A stretch of 52,711 nucleotides of DNA. It comes from Oscillospiraceae bacterium. GTDB lineage: Bacteria > Bacillota > Clostridia > Oscillospirales > Oscillospiraceae. The notes below the pieces were generated by a model. That model did no database searches and was not told the origin of the DNA. It saw nothing but the letters and a program-made list of their open reading frames with translations. The stretch lies in assembly GCA_017416245.1 (NCBI GenBank), contig JAFQCX010000034.1, forward strand, positions 1 to 52,711, written 5' to 3'. The position numbers and the translations under genes were made by a program. Positions 456-43,076 of this stretch are shown here, piece by piece (the first letter of the stretch is position 1; the number at the start of each line of letters is the position of its first letter).

Positions 456-2018
456 ATGGAAAAACCGATCGTTTTAGTGATTATGGACGGTGTTGGCAAG
501 GGTGACGGCGGCAGCGGCGATGCCGTTGCGGTTGCAAAAACCCCCACGCTGGATCATCTGCTAGCCACCTGTCCCCATACATACCTGAAGGCTCACGGCA
601 CTGCCGTCGGTCTGCCCTCCGATGAGGATATGGGCAACTCCGAGGTTGGCCACAACGCTCTGGGCTGCGGTCAGGTATATTCTCAGGGCGCCAAGCTGGT
701 GGGCGAGTCCATTGAAAAGGGCTCTCTGTTTGCGTCCTCTACCTGGATCGACCTGGTAGAAAATGCCAAGGCAGGCCACGCTATGCACTTTTTGGGCCTG
801 CTGTCTGACGGCAATGTCCACTCCAACATTCACCATCTGATCGCCCTTTTGAAGGCTGCCCACACCGCCGGCGTAAAGAAGGCCTACTGCCACATTCTGC
901 TGGACGGCCGTGACGTGCCCGCCACCTCCGCTTTGGAGTATGTGGAAATGCTGGAAAACGTGCTGAGCGAGCTGAACACTGAGGGCTGCGACTACGCCAT
1001 CGCCTCCGGCGGCGGCCGTATGCAGGTGACTATGGACCGTTACGAGGCCAACTGGGCTATGGTGGAAAACGGCTGGAAGACCCACGTGCAGGGCATTGGC
1101 CGTCAGTTCGCATCCGCCAAGGAAGCCATTGAGACCTATCGCGCAGAGACCGGCGTGATCGACCAGGATCTGCCCGCTTTTGTGGTTGCAAGAAACGGCG
1201 CGCCTGTTGCCAAGATCGCCAACGGCGACTCCGTTGTTCTGTTCAACTTCCGTGGTGACCGGGCGCAGGAAATTTCCCTGGCCTTCGACAAGAAGGACTT
1301 TGACAAGTTCGACCGTGGCGACTACACCGGCGTGAAGTTTGCCGGTATGCTCCAGTACGACGGAGACCTGAACATCCCCGAAAACTATCTGGTGCAGCCC
1401 CCTGTAATTACCAACACCCTTACCGAGGTGATGGTTGAGGCCGGCATCAACGAATTTGCCTGCTCCGAGACCCAGAAATACGGCCACGTGACCTACTTCT
1501 GGAACGGCAACCGTTCCGGCAAGGTATCGGAGGAGCTGGAGACCTATTTGGAGATCCCCTCTGATGTGATCCCCTTCGAGCAGGCCCCTGCAATGAAGTG
1601 CAGAGAGGTCACCGCAGCTATGTTAGAGGCTATGGAGTCCAAGAAATTCCAGTTCCTGCGCTGCAACTATCCCAACGGCGATATGGTTGGCCACACCGGC
1701 GTTATGGACGCTGTTGTCACCTCTATGGAGGCTCTGGACGAGTGTCTGGCTAAGGTGCTGGCGTGCGCTGACAAGAACGGCTACACCGTGCTCATCACCG
1801 CCGACCACGGCAATGCCGACCAGATGACCGAAACCAAGAAGGGCAAGACCTCTGTGCGTACTGCCCACTCCTTAAATCCCGTTCCCTTTATCATCTACGA
1901 TAAGGACAGAAGCTGGGCTGTGAAGGAAGGAGCTTTCGGCCTTGCCAACGTAGCGCCCACTGTTGTGAAGATGATGGGCCTGACTGCTCCCGACTGCTGG
2001 GAAGACAGCATTGTATAA
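456..2018 (+). CDS. gpmI: 2,3-bisphosphoglycerate-independent phosphoglycerate mutase
   Basis: Interconverts 3- and 2-phosphoglycerate in cytosolic glycolysis/gluconeogenesis, using two Mn ions and a phosphoserine intermediate. The 520-residue product matches the usual ~510. It begins with the metal-binding MDG (Asp11) and carries the catalytic serine in GNSEVGHNALG (Ser62, the same number as in Bacillus enzymes). Further conserved blocks are DGRDVPATSA, the substrate-binding NFRGDRAQEIS and the C-terminal metal site TADHGNADQM. ATG at 456 is chosen because GGAGGA (441-446) lies nine bases upstream; an upstream in-frame ATG at 426 has no such site. It is probably cotranscribed with the Asp23 gene 38 bp downstream. 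It is not beside the other glycolytic genes it often joins. Confidence 0.97.
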   Translation: MEKPIVLVIMDGVGKGDGGSGDAVAVAKTPTLDHLLATCPHTYLKAHGTAVGLPSDEDMGNSEVGHNALGCGQVYSQGAKLVGESIEKGSLFASSTWIDLVENAKAGHAMHFLGLLSDGNVHSNIHHLIALLKAAHTAGVKKAYCHILLDGRDVPATSALEYVEMLENVLSELNTEGCDYAIASGGGRMQVTMDRYEANWAMVENGWKTHVQGIGRQFASAKEAIETYRAETGVIDQDLPAFVVARNGAPVAKIANGDSVVLFNFRGDRAQEISLAFDKKDFDKFDRGDYTGVKFAGMLQYDGDLNIPENYLVQPPVITNTLTEVMVEAGINEFACSETQKYGHVTYFWNGNRSGKVSEELETYLEIPSDVIPFEQAPAMKCREVTAAMLEAMESKKFQFLRCNYPNGDMVGHTGVMDAVVTSMEALDECLAKVLACADKNGYTVLITADHGNADQMTETKKGKTSVRTAHSLNPVPFIIYDKDRSWAVKEGAFGLANVAPTVVKMMGLTAPDCWEDSIV

Positions 2019-2056
2019 CATCCGCAACAACCGAAACGCAACCTAGGAGGTATTTT

Positions 2057-2413
2057 ATGATTCGTGAAAACACTGAAAACGGTTCTGTAAACGTCAGCGC
2101 TAACGTATATACAGATATCGCCGGCACTGCCGCCATCAACTGTATGAGCGTCAAGGGTATGGTTGCCCGTTCCGTTTCCGACGGTGTATACCACCTGCTG
2201 AGAAGAGAATCTATGGGCAAGGGTGTCAAGGTGGAATTCCACGAGGACAACACCATCTCCATCGACCTGCACGTAATGGTGGGCAACGGTGTTAACCTGA
2301 CCGCTGTCGGCAACGCAATTATCGAAGAAGTTCGTTATATGGTTCACAACTGCACCGGAACTGAAGTCCGCGCCGTGAATGTATATATAGATTCCATTTC
2401 TATTGATAAATAA
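2057..2413 (+). CDS. Asp23/Gls24 family envelope stress protein
   Basis: A 118-residue protein of the Asp23 (YloU/Gls24) family. The family links membrane/envelope homeostasis with fatty-acid use, but the molecular activity is not settled. The family pattern is visible as alternating beta-strand segments (SVNVSANVYTDIAG, VEFHEDNTISIDLHVMV) and the AVGNAIIEEVRYMVHNCTG helix. No signal peptide or transmembrane segment is present. AGGAGG lies seven bases before the ATG. The gene stands directly before a FakA/YloV-like gene, the order seen for yloU-yloV in Bacillus subtilis, which supports the family call. Confidence 0.9.
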   Translation: MIRENTENGSVNVSANVYTDIAGTAAINCMSVKGMVARSVSDGVYHLLRRESMGKGVKVEFHEDNTISIDLHVMVGNGVNLTAVGNAIIEEVRYMVHNCTGTEVRAVNVYIDSISIDK

Positions 2414-2458
2414 AAAGAACCGCCGGGGGATCTCCCGGCTAAAACGGAGGTACTACCA

Positions 2459-4087
2459 TTGAGGCAGACGATTAACGGCGCAGATTTCCGCAGACTGGTG
2501 ATCAGCGCAGCTGCATCTGTTGAGATCAACAAACAGAAGCTTAACGAATTGAACGTATTCCCCGTGCCGGACGGCGATACCGGCACCAATATGTCTATGA
2601 CCATCAATGCCGCAGCGGCAGACTTGCGCAAGGCTGAAGACCCCTCTCTGGAGAAAGCGTCCGCCATTGCCGCCTCTGCTATGCTCCGCGGCGCAAGAGG
2701 CAACTCCGGCGTTATCCTCTCCCTGCTGTTCCGTGGCATTTCCCGCAAGCTCAAGGGCGCGGAGAACTGCAACGGCGTTCTGTGGGCAGAGGCGCTGCAG
2801 GAGGGTGTGGATGCTGCCTATAAGGCAGTTATGAAGCCTGCTGAGGGCACGATCCTCACCGTTGCCAGACTGGCTGCAGGCAAGGCATTGGAAGCAGCCA
2901 AGGAGAACAGCTACTTTGAATTTGTTCACGAGGCCGCCATTGAAGAGGCAAAGATCGCTCTGGCTGACACCGTCAACCAAAACCCCGTGCTGAAAAAGGC
3001 CGGCGTTGTGGATGCCGGCGGCAAGGGCTGGCTGGTTGCTTTGGAGGCAATGCTGTGCGCCCTGCGGGGTGAGGATATCGTTGCCCCCGAGGGCAGTGCA
3101 GAGGCAACTGCCGAGGAGGCGACCTTCTCCGATTTCGATACCGATGATATCACCTTTACCTACTGCACAGAGTTCATCATCTCCCGGGAAAACGATAACG
3201 ATCCCGAGAAGCTGCGGGAATTCCTCAGCAGCCTGGGCGACAGCCTGGTGCTGGTGGACGACGAGGAGATCATCAAGGTCCACGTGCACACCAACGACCC
3301 CGGCAAGGCTCTGCACGAAGCTATTGACTACGGCTCTTTTGTCACGGTCAAGATCGAGAATATGCGTCTGCAGCACACCGAAAAGGTTATGAGTGAGCAG
3401 GAGATCGCCCCCAAGATCGCTGAGCCTGAGAAGGCATTGGGTGTGGTATCCGTTTGCGCCGGCGACGGCTTGGCAGATGTGTTTATGGACCTGGGCGTTG
3501 ACGGCATTATTTCCGGCGGTCAGACCATGAACCCCAGTACCCAGGATATTCTTGAGGTGGTTAACAAGGTGCCTGCTGAAACCGTGTTTGTTCTGCCCAA
3601 CAACAAGAACATCATTATGGCTGCCCAGCAGGTGGACGCTTTGACCCCCAAGAACGTGGTGGTCATCTCCAGCAAGACCGTTCCCCAGGGCATCACCGCT
3701 ATGCTGAACTTCAACCCTGAGGGCGAGGTGCAGGAGAATGTGGACGCCATGACCGAGTCCCTTGATACTGTGGACACCATGCAGATCACCTATGCTGCCC
3801 GCAATTCCGATTTTGACGGACACGATATCCACGAGGGTGACTATCTGGCGCTCTACGGCGGCGCCCTGTTCGGCACAGGCCGTGATGTGAAGGCGCTGCT
3901 GAAGGCGCTGGCGCAAAAGGTCAACAAGTCCGGCAAGGAGTATATCACCATTTACTATGGCGAAGACATTACCGAAAAGCAGGCCCAGAAAACTGCTGAC
4001 CTGTTTGCGGATATCTGCCCCAATGCGGATGTGAATTTGCTCCGGGGTGGCCAGCCCGTATATTATTATTTGATCTCAGCAGAATAA
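2459..4087 (+). CDS. fakA: FakA/YloV-like kinase with DhaL domain
   Basis: Homologue of fatty acid kinase subunit FakA (YloV), which phosphorylates fatty acids presented by a FakB (DegV) partner for phospholipid synthesis. The 542-residue product starts with a DhaL-type ATP-binding domain. The metal/ATP ligand loop FPVPDGDTGTNMS is near residues 32-44, followed by RGARGNSGVILS and VDAGGKGW. The C-terminal half has the extra FakA domains, ending in YYYLISAE. The start is TTG at 2459, placed eight bases after GGAGG (2446-2450). No fakB is visible in the window, so the substrate assignment rests on family and on the Asp23 neighbour. Confidence 0.88.
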   Translation: MRQTINGADFRRLVISAAASVEINKQKLNELNVFPVPDGDTGTNMSMTINAAAADLRKAEDPSLEKASAIAASAMLRGARGNSGVILSLLFRGISRKLKGAENCNGVLWAEALQEGVDAAYKAVMKPAEGTILTVARLAAGKALEAAKENSYFEFVHEAAIEEAKIALADTVNQNPVLKKAGVVDAGGKGWLVALEAMLCALRGEDIVAPEGSAEATAEEATFSDFDTDDITFTYCTEFIISRENDNDPEKLREFLSSLGDSLVLVDDEEIIKVHVHTNDPGKALHEAIDYGSFVTVKIENMRLQHTEKVMSEQEIAPKIAEPEKALGVVSVCAGDGLADVFMDLGVDGIISGGQTMNPSTQDILEVVNKVPAETVFVLPNNKNIIMAAQQVDALTPKNVVVISSKTVPQGITAMLNFNPEGEVQENVDAMTESLDTVDTMQITYAARNSDFDGHDIHEGDYLALYGGALFGTGRDVKALLKALAQKVNKSGKEYITIYYGEDITEKQAQKTADLFADICPNADVNLLRGGQPVYYYLISAE

Positions 4088-15652: not shown

Positions 15653-17446
15653 TTAACCTAATGGCTCGAAATCGGCTGCGCCGTGCTTGCACAGGGGGCA
15701 GACAATGTCGTCGGGGAGGGTATCGCCCTCGTAGACCCAGCCGCAAATCTTGCACACGAAGCCCTTCTTTTCGCTGTCGGGCTTAGGTTTGACGTTCTGC
15801 AGGTAATAGGTGTAGGTCATGGTTTCTACCTTACTCAGGTTGGCGCACTGAGTCACATCGCAGATGAACATAATGTGCGTGCCCAAGTCCACTTGATTTA
15901 TGACCTTACAGCTGATAAAGGCGTTGGCATATTTATCCAAAATCAGCAGGCCGTTTGCTGCGCGCTGCACGTGGTCAAAGCCTGCCAGCTTATCGGTATC
16001 CCGTCCGGAATGGAAGCCAAACCTCTCAAAGATGGCAAAGGGCGCATCCTGAGAAAGCGTGGAAATATTCAGCTTGCCTGTTTTGGTGATCACGTCACAG
16101 GAGTAGTTCAGCTTATTCACGGTGACTGCCAAGCGGTTGGGGGTGCTGGTGACCTGGGTGACAGTGTTCACAATCAGGCCGTTGTCCTTAACCCCGTCGT
16201 TGGTGGTAACCACGTACAGACCGTAGCCGATATTGAACAGGGCGGTGGGGTCTACGAAGTCGTCCTGCACGTCGGCAGCGGTGTAGGAGGCGGACAGCTC
16301 GTCAGCAAGACGGCCAATTTCCTTCACATTTGCCTCGCTCATAGCGGACATAATCGTTACGTTATTCTCCGCGTAGGTAATGTTCTTGGAATTCTCCAGC
16401 TTGCTCTTCATTACCTTGATAGCAGTGGGCGCCCAGGAGCCGTTTTCGATCATAGCCACAGTGCGGTTTTGGAAGTTCCGCTCGGTGAGCTTATCCAAAT
16501 AGGTACGCATATAGGGGAATACATCGGCATTGTAGGTGGTGGTTGCCAGCACCAGCTTGTCGTAGCGGAAGGCATCGGACACTGCCTGCGCCATATCGCA
16601 GCGGGCAAGGTCGTAAACCACTACATTGGGCACTTCCCGTTTCCGCAGCTCCAGCGCCAGCAGCTCTGCAGCCTCCTTGGTGTGGCCGTAAATGGAGGTA
16701 TAGGCGATCACGATGCCGTCAGACTCGGGGGTATAGCTGGACCACAGGTCATAGAGCTTGATATAATGGCCCAGATCCTCAGTAAGGACAGGTCCGTGGA
16801 GGGGGCAGATGATCTGAATATCCAAGGTTGCGGCAACCTTCAGAATGTTCTGCACCTGCTTGCCATACTTGCCCACGATGCCGATAAAGTAGCGGCGAGC
16901 CTCGTCGTCCCAATCCTCTTTCACGTCCAGTGCGCCAAACTTTCCGAAGCCGTCAGCAGAGAACAGCACCTTATCGTAGCTGTCGTAGGTCATCATAACC
17001 TCGGGCCAGTGGACCATAGGCGCAAAAGCGAAGGTCAGGGTGTGCTTGCCCAGGGAAAGCGTGCCGAAATTTTCCACGCACAGGGTATTTTTCATTTGCA
17101 GTTTGGGGAAGAACTGGGCGATCATCACGAAGGTCTTTTTGTTTGCCACCACAGTTACCTGGGGATATGTATTCACAAAGGCCTCAACAGATGCGGCGTG
17201 GTCCGGCTCCATGTGCTGCACTACCAGATAGTCCGGCTCGCGGCCGGCAAGGGCTTTCTTCACATTGCCCAGCCACTCGGCAGTTTTGCTGGCATCGATG
17301 GTGTCCATAACCGCCACCTTCTCGTCCAGGATCACATAAGAATTATACGCCATACCGTTGGGAACTACATATTGCCCCTCGAACAGGTCCACATCGTGGT
17401 CGTTGGCGCCTACATATAAAATCGTATCCGTCACTTTTTTCAGCAT
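15653..17446 (-). CDS. fprA: four-domain flavodiiron protein (flavorubredoxin-like)
   Basis: Cytosolic O2 (or NO) reductase protecting anaerobes. The 597-residue chain has four modules. The first is a beta-lactamase-like diiron domain with ligands H78xE80xD82H83, H146, D165 and H217, all present. The second is a flavodoxin domain from about residue 245 (AYTSIYGHT, FMN phosphate loop). The third is a flavin-reductase-like FMN domain at about 400-540 (ALFNIGYGLYVVTTNDG). The fourth is a C-terminal rubredoxin at about 562-597 (FVCKICGWVYEGD...VCPLCKHG). The added reductase and rubredoxin could pass electrons from NAD(P)H internally. AGGAGG fixes the ATG. The promoter carries a PerR-like box, and the gene diverges from a ZIP transporter. 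Confidence 0.94.
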   Translation of the reverse strand: MLKKVTDTILYVGANDHDVDLFEGQYVVPNGMAYNSYVILDEKVAVMDTIDASKTAEWLGNVKKALAGREPDYLVVQHMEPDHAASVEAFVNTYPQVTVVANKKTFVMIAQFFPKLQMKNTLCVENFGTLSLGKHTLTFAFAPMVHWPEVMMTYDSYDKVLFSADGFGKFGALDVKEDWDDEARRYFIGIVGKYGKQVQNILKVAATLDIQIICPLHGPVLTEDLGHYIKLYDLWSSYTPESDGIVIAYTSIYGHTKEAAELLALELRKREVPNVVVYDLARCDMAQAVSDAFRYDKLVLATTTYNADVFPYMRTYLDKLTERNFQNRTVAMIENGSWAPTAIKVMKSKLENSKNITYAENNVTIMSAMSEANVKEIGRLADELSASYTAADVQDDFVDPTALFNIGYGLYVVTTNDGVKDNGLIVNTVTQVTSTPNRLAVTVNKLNYSCDVITKTGKLNISTLSQDAPFAIFERFGFHSGRDTDKLAGFDHVQRAANGLLILDKYANAFISCKVINQVDLGTHIMFICDVTQCANLSKVETMTYTYYLQNVKPKPDSEKKGFVCKICGWVYEGDTLPDDIVCPLCKHGAADFEPLG

Positions 17447-17485: not shown

Positions 17486-17507
17486 TTATCTTATGGATAT
17501 AAGATAA
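17486..17507. promoter_or_regulatory. 22-bp palindrome at the fprA -10/start region
   Basis: TTATCTTAT-GGAT-ATAAGATAA, a perfect 9-4-9 inverted repeat overlapping the fprA -10 (17501-17506). It could be a second operator or a hairpin at the transcript 5' end. Confidence 0.45.
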
Positions 17508-17529
17508 CATATTTTTCCCATTTTGTCAA
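17501..17529 (-). promoter_or_regulatory. promoter of fprA
   Basis: On the minus strand TTGACA (17524-17529) and TATCTT (17501-17506), 17-bp spacer. Confidence 0.8.
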
Positions 17530-17546
17530 TAAGAATAATTCTTATT
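17528..17546. promoter_or_regulatory. Fur/PerR-type operator box
   Basis: AATAAGAAT-A-ATTCTTATT, a perfect 9-1-9 palindrome typical of Fur-family sites. It overlaps the fprA -35 by two bases. The same element at the same offset stands before perR (41869-41887). Confidence 0.75.
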
Positions 17547-17559
17547 CTCGAAATATTTC

Positions 17560-17588
17560 TTGACATTTTTTTCTATGCTGTATAGAAT
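17560..17588 (+). promoter_or_regulatory. promoter of the ZIP transporter gene
   Basis: TTGACA (17560-17565) and TAGAAT (17583-17588), 17-bp spacer, 14 bp from the Fur/PerR-type box. Confidence 0.7.
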
Positions 17589-17598
17589 GATAGTGGAA

Positions 17599-17651
17599 GG
17601 CAGAGCAACATACCATTCTTTGTAAAACAAGTTCCGTTTTATTGCTCTGCC
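17599..17651 (+). promoter_or_regulatory. stem-loop in the ZIP transporter leader
   Basis: GGCAGAGCAA (17599-17608) pairs perfectly with TTGCTCTGCC (17642-17651), enclosing a small TTGT-AAA-ACAA hairpin. It begins about 11 bp after the -10 and ends seven bases before the AGGAG site. It resembles none of the riboswitch classes I know. Confidence 0.4.
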
Positions 17652-17667: not shown

Positions 17668-18426
17668 ATGAAATTGGTACTACTGACCGCCTTAGGCGTA
17701 GGCGGCGCAACCATATTCGGTACGGTGCTGGGTTTTCTTTTCAAGAATATCTCTCATAAATTCAGCGATATCGTTCTGTCCTTCGCAGCCGGCGTGATGC
17801 TGGCAGCGGCAGTGATCGGGCTCATTCTCCCCTCCCTGGAATATGGCGGGGAGCTGGGGCTTGTATATACCATCACCGGTGTGTTTGCCGGCGCGCTGTG
17901 CGTGAACCTGTTCGATAAATTAGTGCCCCATTTGCACCGGCTCAGCGGCGCAGATCAGGAAAGCCACCCCGGTGACACCAACAAGCTGAACAAGGTTTTA
18001 CTGTTCGTCACTGCCATTGCCATTCACAATCTGCCGGAGGGCATTGCCGCAGGCGTTGGCTTTGGCGCAGGCGACACCTCAGAAGCCCTGACTGTTGCAG
18101 GCGGCATTGCGCTGCAGAACATCCCCGAGGGTATGGTGATCATCGGGCCTATGCTGGCAGCCGGCTTCAAGCCCTCCCGCACCTTTTTGGTGGCGGCAGC
18201 CACCGGCGTGGTGGAGATCGTGGGCACGCTGTTTGGCTACTTTGCCGTTACTGTTTCCACTGCGATCTTGCCCTTTGCCCTGGCATTTGCAGGCGGCACG
18301 ATGTTATATGTTATCAGCGATGAGATGATCCCCGAAACCCACGCCCACGGCGCGGAACGGGGCGCGACCTATTCCCTTTTGGTTGGCTTCTGCCTGATGC
18401 TGGTGTTTGATGTGCTGCTCAATTAA
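17668..18426 (+). CDS. ZIP family metal transporter
   Basis: Integral membrane importer of divalent metals (Zn, Fe or Mn), ZupT-like. The 252-residue chain has about eight membrane segments. The two metal-site helices carry HNLPEG (TAIAIHNLPEGIAAG, near residue 120) and QNIPEG (IALQNIPEGMVI, near 152), plus a late DEMIPETHAHG histidine/acid cluster. GGAG seven bases upstream fixes the ATG. It shares an intergenic region with fprA, including a Fur/PerR-type box, so metal import and oxygen defence may be controlled together. The transported metal cannot be told from sequence. Confidence 0.93.
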   Translation: MKLVLLTALGVGGATIFGTVLGFLFKNISHKFSDIVLSFAAGVMLAAAVIGLILPSLEYGGELGLVYTITGVFAGALCVNLFDKLVPHLHRLSGADQESHPGDTNKLNKVLLFVTAIAIHNLPEGIAAGVGFGAGDTSEALTVAGGIALQNIPEGMVIIGPMLAAGFKPSRTFLVAAATGVVEIVGTLFGYFAVTVSTAILPFALAFAGGTMLYVISDEMIPETHAHGAERGATYSLLVGFCLMLVFDVLLN

Positions 18427-40620: not shown

Positions 40621-41214
40621 TTACTTAAAATATCTCTCCAGCAAACCCTTCAGAGCAACACCGTGGCGAGCCTCATCGCGAGCCATCTCATGAACGGTGT
40701 CGTGGATGGCATCCAGGCCGTTCTTCTTAGCGCAGGAGGCCAGGTCGAACTTACCCTGCGTTGCGCCGAACTCGCAGTCCACACGCCATGCCAGGTTATC
40801 CTTGGTGGTAGCCTTCATATTGGGCTCCAGGTCCTCGCCCAACAGCTCTGCAAACTTTGCAGCGTGCTCAGCCTCTTCGTAAGCTGCCTTCTCCCAGTAC
40901 AGGCCGATCTCGGGGTAGCCCTCGCGGTGGGCAATGCGAGCCATGCACAGGTACATACCCACCTCGCTGCACTCGCCGTTGAAATTAGCCATCAGCTGAT
41001 CGAAGATGTACTTCTTGTCCTCAGCGGAGATGTCGGGGTTGTTCTTCACGGTCTGGGCATAAACACCGTACTCGTGAACGGCTGCCAGCTTCTGCTCACC
41101 GGCCTGCTCCACGAACTTGGAAGCGGGAACCTTACATACGGGGCACTTGAAATCGGCTGCCAACTCATCGGCAGTGTGAACGTAACCACAAACAGAGCAT
41201 ACAAACTTTTTCAT
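40621..41214 (-). CDS. rbr: reverse rubrerythrin
   Basis: Peroxide reductase of anaerobes with the domains in reverse order: N-terminal rubredoxin (CSVCGYVH...CPVCKVP, residues about 6-30) followed by a four-helix diiron domain with repeated E..H / E..E motifs (ECSEVGMYLCMARIAHREG, YEEAEHAAKFAE, DEARHGVALKG). Size 197 residues. GGAGG precedes the ATG. It sits third in the operon after perR and rubredoxin, giving an intact electron route from rubredoxin to the diiron site. Confidence 0.95.
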   Translation of the reverse strand: MKKFVCSVCGYVHTADELAADFKCPVCKVPASKFVEQAGEQKLAAVHEYGVYAQTVKNNPDISAEDKKYIFDQLMANFNGECSEVGMYLCMARIAHREGYPEIGLYWEKAAYEEAEHAAKFAELLGEDLEPNMKATTKDNLAWRVDCEFGATQGKFDLASCAKKNGLDAIHDTVHEMARDEARHGVALKGLLERYFK

Positions 41215-41263: not shown

Positions 41264-41392
41264 TTATTCTTCTTTTTCTTCGACTTCTTCGAACTGGTCG
41301 GGACCTACACCGCACAGCGGGCACTCATAATCCTCAGGCAACTCGTCGCCTTCATAGACGTAGTCACAGACCGTACATACGAACTTTTTCAT
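41264..41392 (-). CDS. rubredoxin
   Basis: A 42-residue rubredoxin: [39 protein letters not shown] with four cysteines as CxxC...CPLC holding one iron. It is too short for length-filtered gene finding. Its ATG overlaps the perR stop as ATGA, showing translational coupling with the regulator. It is probably the electron donor for rubrerythrin and the flavodiiron protein. Confidence 0.93.
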
Positions 41393-41796
41393 ACCGCTTC
41401 TCCTTTCTTATTTGCGCAGGCTTGGCATTTGCCAACGAAGGTCAGCTGGCAGGTGTCGATCACTCCGCCGGTTTCCCCCGTTACCTGCTGATTCAGCGCC
41501 TCCGGCACTGCAATTTGGGGCAGATCTGTGATGGCCTCGCAGCCCATACACACGAAATGCACGTGAGGGGTCGTGTTGCCATCGAACCGTTCCACCCCGT
41601 TCACCGTGCCTAAGCTCACGATCTCACCTTTGTTCTTGAACATAGACAGGTTCCGGTAAACTGTACCCAGCGAAAGGTCCGGATATTCCGGTTTCAGGTG
41701 GGTAAATACCATTTCAGCGGAAGGATGCTCCTTCGTCTGCCGCAGATAGGCCAGAATCGCGTTTCTTTTACGGAATTGCTTGGTGGTCGTATCCAT
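41389..41796 (-). CDS. perR: PerR-type peroxide-sensing Fur-family repressor
   Basis: A 135-residue Fur-family regulator. The winged-helix head ends near residue 70. The metal ligands of PerR are visible as His24 (EHPSAEMVF), Asp72 (ERFDGN), His78 and His80 (TTPHVHFVC); the structural zinc site has C83xxC86 and CQAC. A peroxide-sensing PerR is favoured over Fur by the redox genes that follow. ATG at 41796 follows AAGGAG; an earlier in-frame ATG (41853) lies without a site. The promoter overlaps a 19-bp palindrome, consistent with autorepression. Confidence 0.9.
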
Positions 41797-41841
41797 CGTA
41801 TTACTCCTTCCTAAACGAGAACGTTTCTTATTTACATCCAT

Positions 41842-41870
41842 ACTATAGCACACCCTTTTCTATTTGTCAA
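41842..41870 (-). promoter_or_regulatory. promoter of the perR operon
   Basis: On the minus strand TTGACA (41865-41870) and TATAGT (41842-41847), 17-bp spacer. Confidence 0.85.
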
Positions 41871-41887
41871 TAGGAATTATTCTCATT
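41869..41887. promoter_or_regulatory. Fur/PerR-type operator box of perR
   Basis: AATAGGAAT-T-ATTCTCATT, a 9-1-9 inverted repeat with two mismatched pairs. It overlaps the -35 by two bases, exactly as at the fprA promoter. Confidence 0.75.
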
Positions 41888-41975: not shown

Positions 41976-43076
41976 GTGGAGAAGAATCTGCCTTTTTACC
42001 GGGGCTGTCTGCTGGGTATGGCCGTAGGCGATGCTATGGGCTACACCATCGACGGCAAGACCTGGCCTGAGATCCAGGAGAATTACGGACCCAACGGTCT
42101 GCTGGGCTACGACCTGCAGGAGGCAGAGTATGCCCAAGTCACCTCCTACACCCAGTTTGCCGCCTTTCTGTGCAACGGTCTGCTGCTGTCGGTTTCCCGG
42201 GGCAAGGTGGATTACCTGCGGTATGCCAAGCTGGCCCTCAAGGAGTGGACCCGCAGTCAGCATTTCTATCGCGATCCGGAAACCAGCCTCTGCTGGCTGG
42301 CAAAGCTCCCCCAATTCCGCAGAAAGCACTGTCGGGACGCCCGTATGCTGGACAATCTGCGCCTGGAGCAGTTTGGCGCTATGGACTCTCCCAAAAATCA
42401 CAACAATGCCCCCGGCGCGCTTACTGCCGCCGTGGCCGTGGCTATGTTTTATAATGAAAAGCGGCTGACCCCGGAACAGGTGGGCACTTTGACCGGCGAG
42501 CTGATCGCGCTGACCCACGGAGATCCCGAGGCTTTTTTGTCCGGCGTGGTGCTGGCTTACGCCATCACCGGCATTTTGCACGAGCCGGGTCTTCCCCTTG
42601 CCGACCAGTTCCAGCAGGCCATCGCCGTGATGGATGGTCAGTTCCGCAGCCGTTTCTTCCAGGCGGAGGACCTTGCGCTGCAGTTGCGGCGAGCAATCGC
42701 TTTGGCCAAATCCGGCACGGTTTCTGTGCAGGAGGGTATGGAGCAGCTGGGCTGTATGGACGCGCCCCAATGTCTGGCGGGAGCGATGTACGCCTGCCTG
42801 TTATATCCTAATGATTTTGACAGTGCCATTATTACCGCCGTAAATCACTCAGGGTTCAGCGCCGCCGTAGGCGCCATCACCGGCGCGATACTGGGCGCCA
42901 AACTGGGCGAGGATGCCCTGCCGGATTTCTATTTGGAATCCCTGGACTGCATAGATGCGCTGCGCTGTCTTGCAGCGGATATGATCAGCGGCGCTCCTGC
43001 CCTCAGCATTTTCGACGATAGCTGGGATCACAAATACGTGCAAGGATTTCCCCCTGAGGGGCTTCCGCAAATTTGA
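41976..43076 (+). CDS. ADP-ribosylglycohydrolase-fold protein lacking metal-binding motifs
   Basis: A 366-residue protein of the DraG/ARH family, which normally removes ADP-ribose from proteins using two Mg/Mn ions. The fold motifs are clear: GMAVGDAMG (residues 15-22), NGLLLS, HNNAPGAL, THGDPEAFLSG and AVNHSG...GAITGAILGA. However, the metal-binding TDDTQM run is replaced by TSYTQF (about 56-61) and the GDSDS/T run after AVNHS by GFSAA (about 293-297). Hydrolysis is therefore unlikely; it may bind ADP-ribose-like ligands or regulate. The start is GTG at 41976, seven bases after AGGAGG; ATG at 41949 overlaps the promoter. Confidence 0.85.
   Translation: MEKNLPFYRGCLLGMAVGDAMGYTIDGKTWPEIQENYGPNGLLGYDLQEAEYAQVTSYTQFAAFLCNGLLLSVSRGKVDYLRYAKLALKEWTRSQHFYRDPETSLCWLAKLPQFRRKHCRDARMLDNLRLEQFGAMDSPKNHNNAPGALTAAVAVAMFYNEKRLTPEQVGTLTGELIALTHGDPEAFLSGVVLAYAITGILHEPGLPLADQFQQAIAVMDGQFRSRFFQAEDLALQLRRAIALAKSGTVSVQEGMEQLGCMDAPQCLAGAMYACLLYPNDFDSAIITAVNHSGFSAAVGAITGAILGAKLGEDALPDFYLESLDCIDALRCLAADMISGAPALSIFDDSWDHKYVQGFPPEGLPQI

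Follow-up and report, generated by a model that had tools for sequence, protein, structure and literature searches.

That PerR can control flavodiiron protein (FDP) and rubrerythrin genes has been published before. In Clostridium acetobutylicum, according to the available sections of two reports, PerR represses fprA1/2 and the reverse rubrerythrins (PMC7482061, PMC11481553), so that a single PerR regulon of this strict anaerobe covers both flavodiiron proteins and rubrerythrins. The locus described here resembles that regulon in these components, yet the C. acetobutylicum FDPs are, in the same sections, class A, whereas here the flavodiiron core is fused to flavin-reductase and rubredoxin-like domains; here, too, a rubredoxin gene and then a rubrerythrin gene follow perR. 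Rubredoxin:oxygen oxidoreductase (Roo) is a flavodiiron protein as well. A 2004 study of delta-proteobacteria, in its available excerpts, predicted PerR regulons that have comparable motifs and include perR-rbr-roo operons (PMC545781). In these excerpts, Desulfovibrio has sites such as AATAGGAATCGTTCCTGTT, which closely resemble our motif, and a perR-rbr-rdl operon, and the Geobacter perR-rbr-roo operon ties PerR to rubredoxin:oxygen oxidoreductase (PMC545781). In Geobacter, however, roo is described inside the perR operon and with another motif, whereas here fprA is separate, about 24 kb away. The rbr-perR-sor-CD0828 operon of Clostridioides difficile, a perR operon with a rubrerythrin like the present one, is autorepressed and induced by H2O2 in the accessible parts of two papers (PMC8546684, PMC11980386). 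The C. difficile fdp genes, in contrast, are assigned in the available text to SigB and OseR (Rex too for fdpF) and not to PerR (PMC11481553), whereas a candidate operator lies at fprA here.

The DNA analysed, referred to as the window, is a stretch of 52,711 nucleotides from an Oscillospiraceae bacterium whose genus is probably Faecousia. Among the matches listed for Faecousia and PerR in the literature, no title concerned this regulon.

Candidate operators at the fprA and perR promoters

The features of the window on which the analysis rests are as follows.

15653-17446, minus strand: fprA, flavodiiron protein of 597 aa (Pfam ODP, Flavodoxin, Flavin_Reduct, RUBY_RBDX)
17501-17529, minus strand: fprA promoter, read from sequence; −35 TTGACA at 17524-17529, 17-bp spacer, −10 TATCTT at 17501-17506
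17528-17546, minus strand: candidate PerR operator at fprA, perfect 9-1-9 palindrome, AATAAGAATAATTCTTATT
17560-17588, plus strand: ZIP promoter; TTGACA at 17560-17565, 17 bp, TAGAAT at 17583-17588
17668-18426, plus strand: ZIP-family (ZupT-like) metal transporter, divergent from fprA (PF02535, 83.9 bits)
40621-41214, minus strand: rubrerythrin with an N-terminal rubredoxin-like domain (Pfam)
41264-41392, minus strand: rubredoxin-like small protein, next after perR (Pfam, tested as 41270-41392; stop codon from sequence)
41389-41796, minus strand: perR, Fur-family peroxide regulator of 135 aa (PF01475)
41814-41832, minus strand: candidate PerR operator 2 at perR, AATAAGAAACGTTCTCGTT, 15/18
41842-41870, minus strand: perR promoter; −35 TTGACA at 41865-41870, 17-bp spacer, −10 TATAGT at 41842-41847
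41869-41887, minus strand: candidate PerR operator 1 at perR, AATAGGAATTATTCTCATT, 7/9 arm pairs matching, overlapping the −35

FprA has the metallo-beta-lactamase-like (PF19583) and flavodoxin domains of the flavodiiron core, followed by a flavin-reductase and then a rubredoxin-like domain (Pfam), and would act as an O2 reductase. Class F flavodiiron proteins carry a C-terminal rubredoxin and NADH:rubredoxin oxidoreductase in the available text of PMC6033852; assignment of FprA to this class was dropped, its C-terminus being composed of the flavin-reductase and rubredoxin-like domains.

A sequence-only reading of this DNA had described a 9-1-9 palindrome at fprA and a related one at perR, each overlapping a TTGACA −35 element by two bases and each with a 17-bp spacer to the −10. 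The sequence confirms every element of this description, with 2 bp shared between operator and minus-strand −35 at fprA and likewise between operator 1 and −35 at perR. Relative to the fprA −35, the operator lies at −17 in the window genome and in the congener G074, and at −19 in G064 and G083. A perfect 9-4-9 inverted repeat (TTATCTTAT/ATAAGATAA, 17486-17507) spans the fprA −10 and the expected start, and is absent by eye from the aligned rows of the relatives. An Rfam search of the window returned tRNA only.

The palindrome of candidate operator 1 at perR is thus real, but the earlier picture of this promoter overlooked candidate operator 2, which lies at +38 from the start of the −35, downstream of the −10 and just past the expected transcription start. 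Across 47 perR promoters anchored on the −35, the downstream site is kept more widely than the upstream one: it lies at +38 in 37 and at +39 in 2, while the upstream site lies at −17 in 12, at −25 in 16, between −22 and −24 in 3 and at −60 in 1, and is missing at threshold from the remaining 15. The window promoter carries both, at −17 (operator 1) and +38 (operator 2). G064 and G074, both close relatives, have AATAAGAAACATTCTTATT as the downstream operator. In locus L026, whose promoter anchor was misplaced in this tally, the site is likewise +38 from its own TTGACA. Divergent from perR is a gene of the ADP-ribosylglycohydrolase family (41976-43076; Pfam).

Conservation of the fprA operator

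Seven sequences make up the clade that carries the box at fprA. Five have a strong box (the window genome, G064, G083, G074 and the named record L173) and two a degraded one (G001 and G069), in which the right arm has decayed and TTGCGA replaces TTGACA. When the alignment is anchored on the site, all seven members agree in 14 of 19 operator columns, whereas the two flanks of 40 columns each hold 3 and 1 invariant columns; the left arm is invariant at 9/9 positions and the right arm at 5/9. Among the five strong-box sequences 17/19 columns are invariant, a partly circular value on which we do not rely, as the selection pattern itself demanded the operator.

The candidate PerR operator at fprA is lineage-specific. 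Over 58 fprA upstream regions in the genus, scores are at least 16/18 in 7, 15 in 2, 14 in 3 and no higher than 12 in 46, so a link between the FDP and PerR is not general in the genus; shuffles of the first 29 upstreams reach 15 in about 0.14%. The seven highest are those of the window genome, L138, L048, L049, L050, L051 and L156 (L054 was dropped from the set, its start missing and its N-terminus lying in L138). L156, from G066, falls outside the box clade and may represent a separate gain. A wider set drew 80 FDP loci from named genomes, of which 79 have a usable upstream (L213 has none); the box occurs in 1/79, the closest sequence L173, and two others score 14-15, though other PerR motifs may occur in those lineages. 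The proposed link between flavodiiron O2 reduction and the rubredoxin/rubrerythrin operon is supported for this locus on sequence grounds, but its fprA half is lineage-specific.

A ZIP transporter gene that diverges from fprA

The fprA palindrome described earlier is real, but it had been assigned without regard to the divergent ZIP gene that shares it. The far edge of the operator is 13 bp from the ZIP −35, and from the start of the operator to that of the ZIP −35 the distance is 32 bp. The NCBIfam ZupT model scores the protein below cut-off (135.3 of 252). A perfect 10-nt inverted repeat (GGCAGAGCAA/TTGCTCTGCC, 17599-17608 and 17642-17651) is located in the expected ZIP leader.

The intergenic operator could chiefly serve ZIP, with fprA affected through promoter adjacency alone, a reading that we regard as unlikely although it fares best among the alternatives to PerR acting on both operators. 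In its favor, each of the five strong-box sequences (G000, G064, G083, G074 and L173) has a ZIP gene diverging from fprA, with its −35 placed 31-32 bp from where the operator starts, and ZIP is not beside fprA in the degraded-box G001 and G069. PerR also controls a zinc importer, ZosA, in Bacillus subtilis, as described in the available part of PMC4324032. The operator, however, overlaps the −35 of fprA in the register of perR operator 1 and does not overlap that of ZIP, and three other fprA genes close to a 37-39%-identical ZIP (L056, L058 and L062) have no box. The ZosA precedent makes it plausible that the operator would co-control ZIP along with fprA; ZosA is, however, a P-type ATPase in the same part of that source (PMC4324032), while the candidate here is a ZIP protein.

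Distribution of the motif

Allowing up to two mismatches, AATNNGAATNATTCNNATT matches the window twice, both times exactly, against an expectation of 0.20; among 100 shuffles, 1 had two matches. In the whole draft assembly (1,550,602 bases, 65.64% complete), the fprA and perR sites are the only exact matches, and none has a single mismatch. Looser searches return more: 90 sites with up to three mismatches, compared with 40 for the reversed pattern, and 56 with up to two mismatches to the shorter core TNAGAATNATTCTNA, compared with 33 for the control, so the loose matches are mostly background. Among the matches listed, the one-mismatch TNAGAATNATTCTNA sites in this genome other than that at perR (L003, L004, L006 and L007) all lie inside ORFs of a mechanical listing, and for this reason were not counted as operators. 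Eight two-mismatch AATNNGAATNATTCNNATT sites (L097-L104) gave no convincing redox promoter among the matches listed; one of them, L102, is located where a gene identified by eye as rubrerythrin-like has its 3′ end, outside its promoter. By eye, the promoter of the genome's second rubrerythrin-like gene has no such site.

Across 61 genomes of the genus, exact AATNNGAATNATTCNNATT occurs at 32 sites in 25 genomes and the reversed control at none. The motif is associated with genes of the Fur family, of which nearly all are perR: 25/32 exact sites lie within 250 bp upstream of such a gene. Five of the other seven precede redox genes, namely fprA (G000 and G074), rubredoxin (G011), and a rubrerythrin-like gene and a nitroreductase (both G018); of the remaining two, one is at a PepSY-domain gene (G033) and the other is in G009, 168 bp upstream of its fprA. 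A lack of enrichment near redox genes, which would have counted against a shared regulator, was not found: the exact sites of the draft itself are confined to fprA and perR.

The extra exact boxes of G018 stand before its second rubrerythrin-like gene, which a flavin-reductase gene follows, and before the nitroreductase (L135, L139), and its regulon is perhaps larger. G069 has a second Fur-family gene (L134, G069:C25:6141-9159; ORF 1519-1911) with AATTAGAATCATTCTAATT directly ahead at 1501-1519 and a [FeFe]-hydrogenase ORF (1878-3017; Pfam) after it, a possible unit of Fur-type regulator and hydrogenase. Contig G063:C17 (L136) carries a pair of Fur-family genes, separated by about 3.3 kb, with one exact box each.

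A 7-1-7 Fur-family palindrome is present at perR's own promoter in all 47 upstream regions examined (L093, in which no perR was found, was left out). Motif scores reach at least 13/18 in 47/47 and at least 14 in 46/47, levels attained by 8.6% and 1.4% of shuffles, with a scoring consensus that was set after the best matches had been inspected.

PerR as the probable regulator

The window PerR matches PF01475 at 78.2 bits (cut-off 23.1), and its best PDB match is B. subtilis PerR (2fe3, 7.6e-18). The sensor ligands H37, D85, H91, H93 and D104, in B. subtilis numbering counted along the 2fe3 alignment, are present in the window protein and in 46/46 aligned rows, and the four cysteines of the structural zinc site in 46/46 (1 of 47 rows, not over 100 aa, was dropped). 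NCBIfam PerR models remain below their curated cut-offs (103.9 of 180 for the best, 84.6 of 200 for another), which are naming thresholds and not a property of PerR; because the best score is under 180, equivalog membership is not claimed.

Exactly one PF01475 gene occurs in 17 of the 18 near-complete genomes of the genus (at least 90% complete, at most 5% contaminated), and none in the other, G021; on these counts, separate Fur and Zur proteins seem to be absent from the near-complete genomes. Over all 61 genomes, 6 are without a match and 15 have two or three, a few of them below cut-off. The sole Fur-family gene of G006 (97% complete) is only a distant match to the window PerR (4.6e-10). 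The six genomes without a detected Fur-family gene (G004, G008, G021, G025, G070 and G082; 4/6 under 90% complete) have no fprA box. Our draft has one PF01475 match, and PerR is presumably the only Fur-family protein of this species.

That a single Fur-family regulator acts at both promoters, most simply the PerR encoded at 41389-41796, had been the central claim of the sequence-only reading. The 47/47 perR upstreams, the 25/32 exact sites, the Fur-family counts and the PerR ligands of the protein lend it support, and we consider it very likely that PerR would act on the operators of both fprA and perR. Use of these operators by another Fur-family protein, a Fur or Zur whose gene falls in the third of the genome that the assembly lacks, appears improbable. 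At 66% completeness, the assembly may be without a second Fur-family gene or additional sites, 15/61 congeners do show two or three PF01475 matches, and a 7-1-7 core is the general shape of Fur-family sites; against this stand the single gene in 17/18 near-complete congeners, with none in the last, and the association of the motif with genes that are nearly all perR. Chance palindromes in AT-rich intergenic DNA, with no regulator, have a negligible probability and are already contradicted: the palindrome is short and AT-rich and has an unrelated perfect 9-4-9 inverted repeat in its neighborhood, but the reversed control has 0 matches in 61 genomes, the geometry is fixed and the operator was kept while its flanks diverged.

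A possible change of regulator at fprA

Many other fprA genes of the genus adjoin a Crp/Fnr-family gene (one copy assigned by Pfam: HTH_Crp_2 and cNMP_binding), and many near relatives seem to run fprA under a different regulator. One such gene is L063:774-1430, and GTGATAAAGTCAC-like dyads are seen upstream of fprA in congeners of this kind. GTGA-N5-TCAC occurs upstream of fprA in 11/17 Crp-adjacent cases and in 2/41 others (Fisher p 3.3e-6), a post hoc comparison in which the motif was noticed in the same sequences before counting and the p-value ignores relatedness; 6/17 Crp-adjacent cases are without it. The 17 genomes were chosen by eye from coordinates, and in G033 and G021 the gene is about 3-4.5 kb from fprA. 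In a 29-row tree without G074 and L173, the box-bearing FprA proteins (n = 5) form one group apart from the Crp-adjacent ones, with support of 100/100.

The Crp/Fnr-family gene was found in 40/61 genomes and not in the strong-box G000, G064, G074 and G083 (P = 0.011, a value that ignores shared ancestry and assembly gaps, with only G083 over 90% complete and 17/57 other genomes also without the gene). The degraded-box G001 and G069 have it, on contigs other than that of fprA. The candidate PerR operator at fprA thus has the look of a replacement specific to this lineage. We tentatively suggest, as a possibility somewhat short of even, that fprA switched regulators within the genus, from Crp/Fnr with GTGA-N5-TCAC elsewhere to a PerR operator shared with ZIP here.

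Proposed mechanism and implications

From the observed sequence, geometry and conservation of the sites and the family of the regulator, we infer PerR binding, repression, the inducer and an effect on ZIP. When peroxide is absent, PerR dimers bound to Fe(II) or Mn(II) would occupy the fprA −35 and the two operators flanking the perR promoter, and would block RNA polymerase at both genes. The fprA operator may also repress the divergent ZIP metal importer. In B. subtilis PerR, H2O2 oxidizes the histidines of the metal site; by analogy, H2O2, and perhaps O2, would oxidize these histidines here and PerR would leave the DNA. The perR-rubredoxin-rubrerythrin operon would then be switched on, providing peroxide removal and autoregulation, and fprA together with it, whose product carries its own flavin-reductase and rubredoxin-like domains and would reduce O2.

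PerR acting at both promoters would tie the O2- and peroxide-removing systems to one sensor, in a small and testable regulon of a genus whose near-complete genomes seem to be without separate Fur and Zur. Its close relatives allow comparison of PerR-linked with probably Crp/Fnr-linked flavodiiron genes. If true, the switch of regulators would be a natural experiment in changing the signal that triggers O2 reduction.
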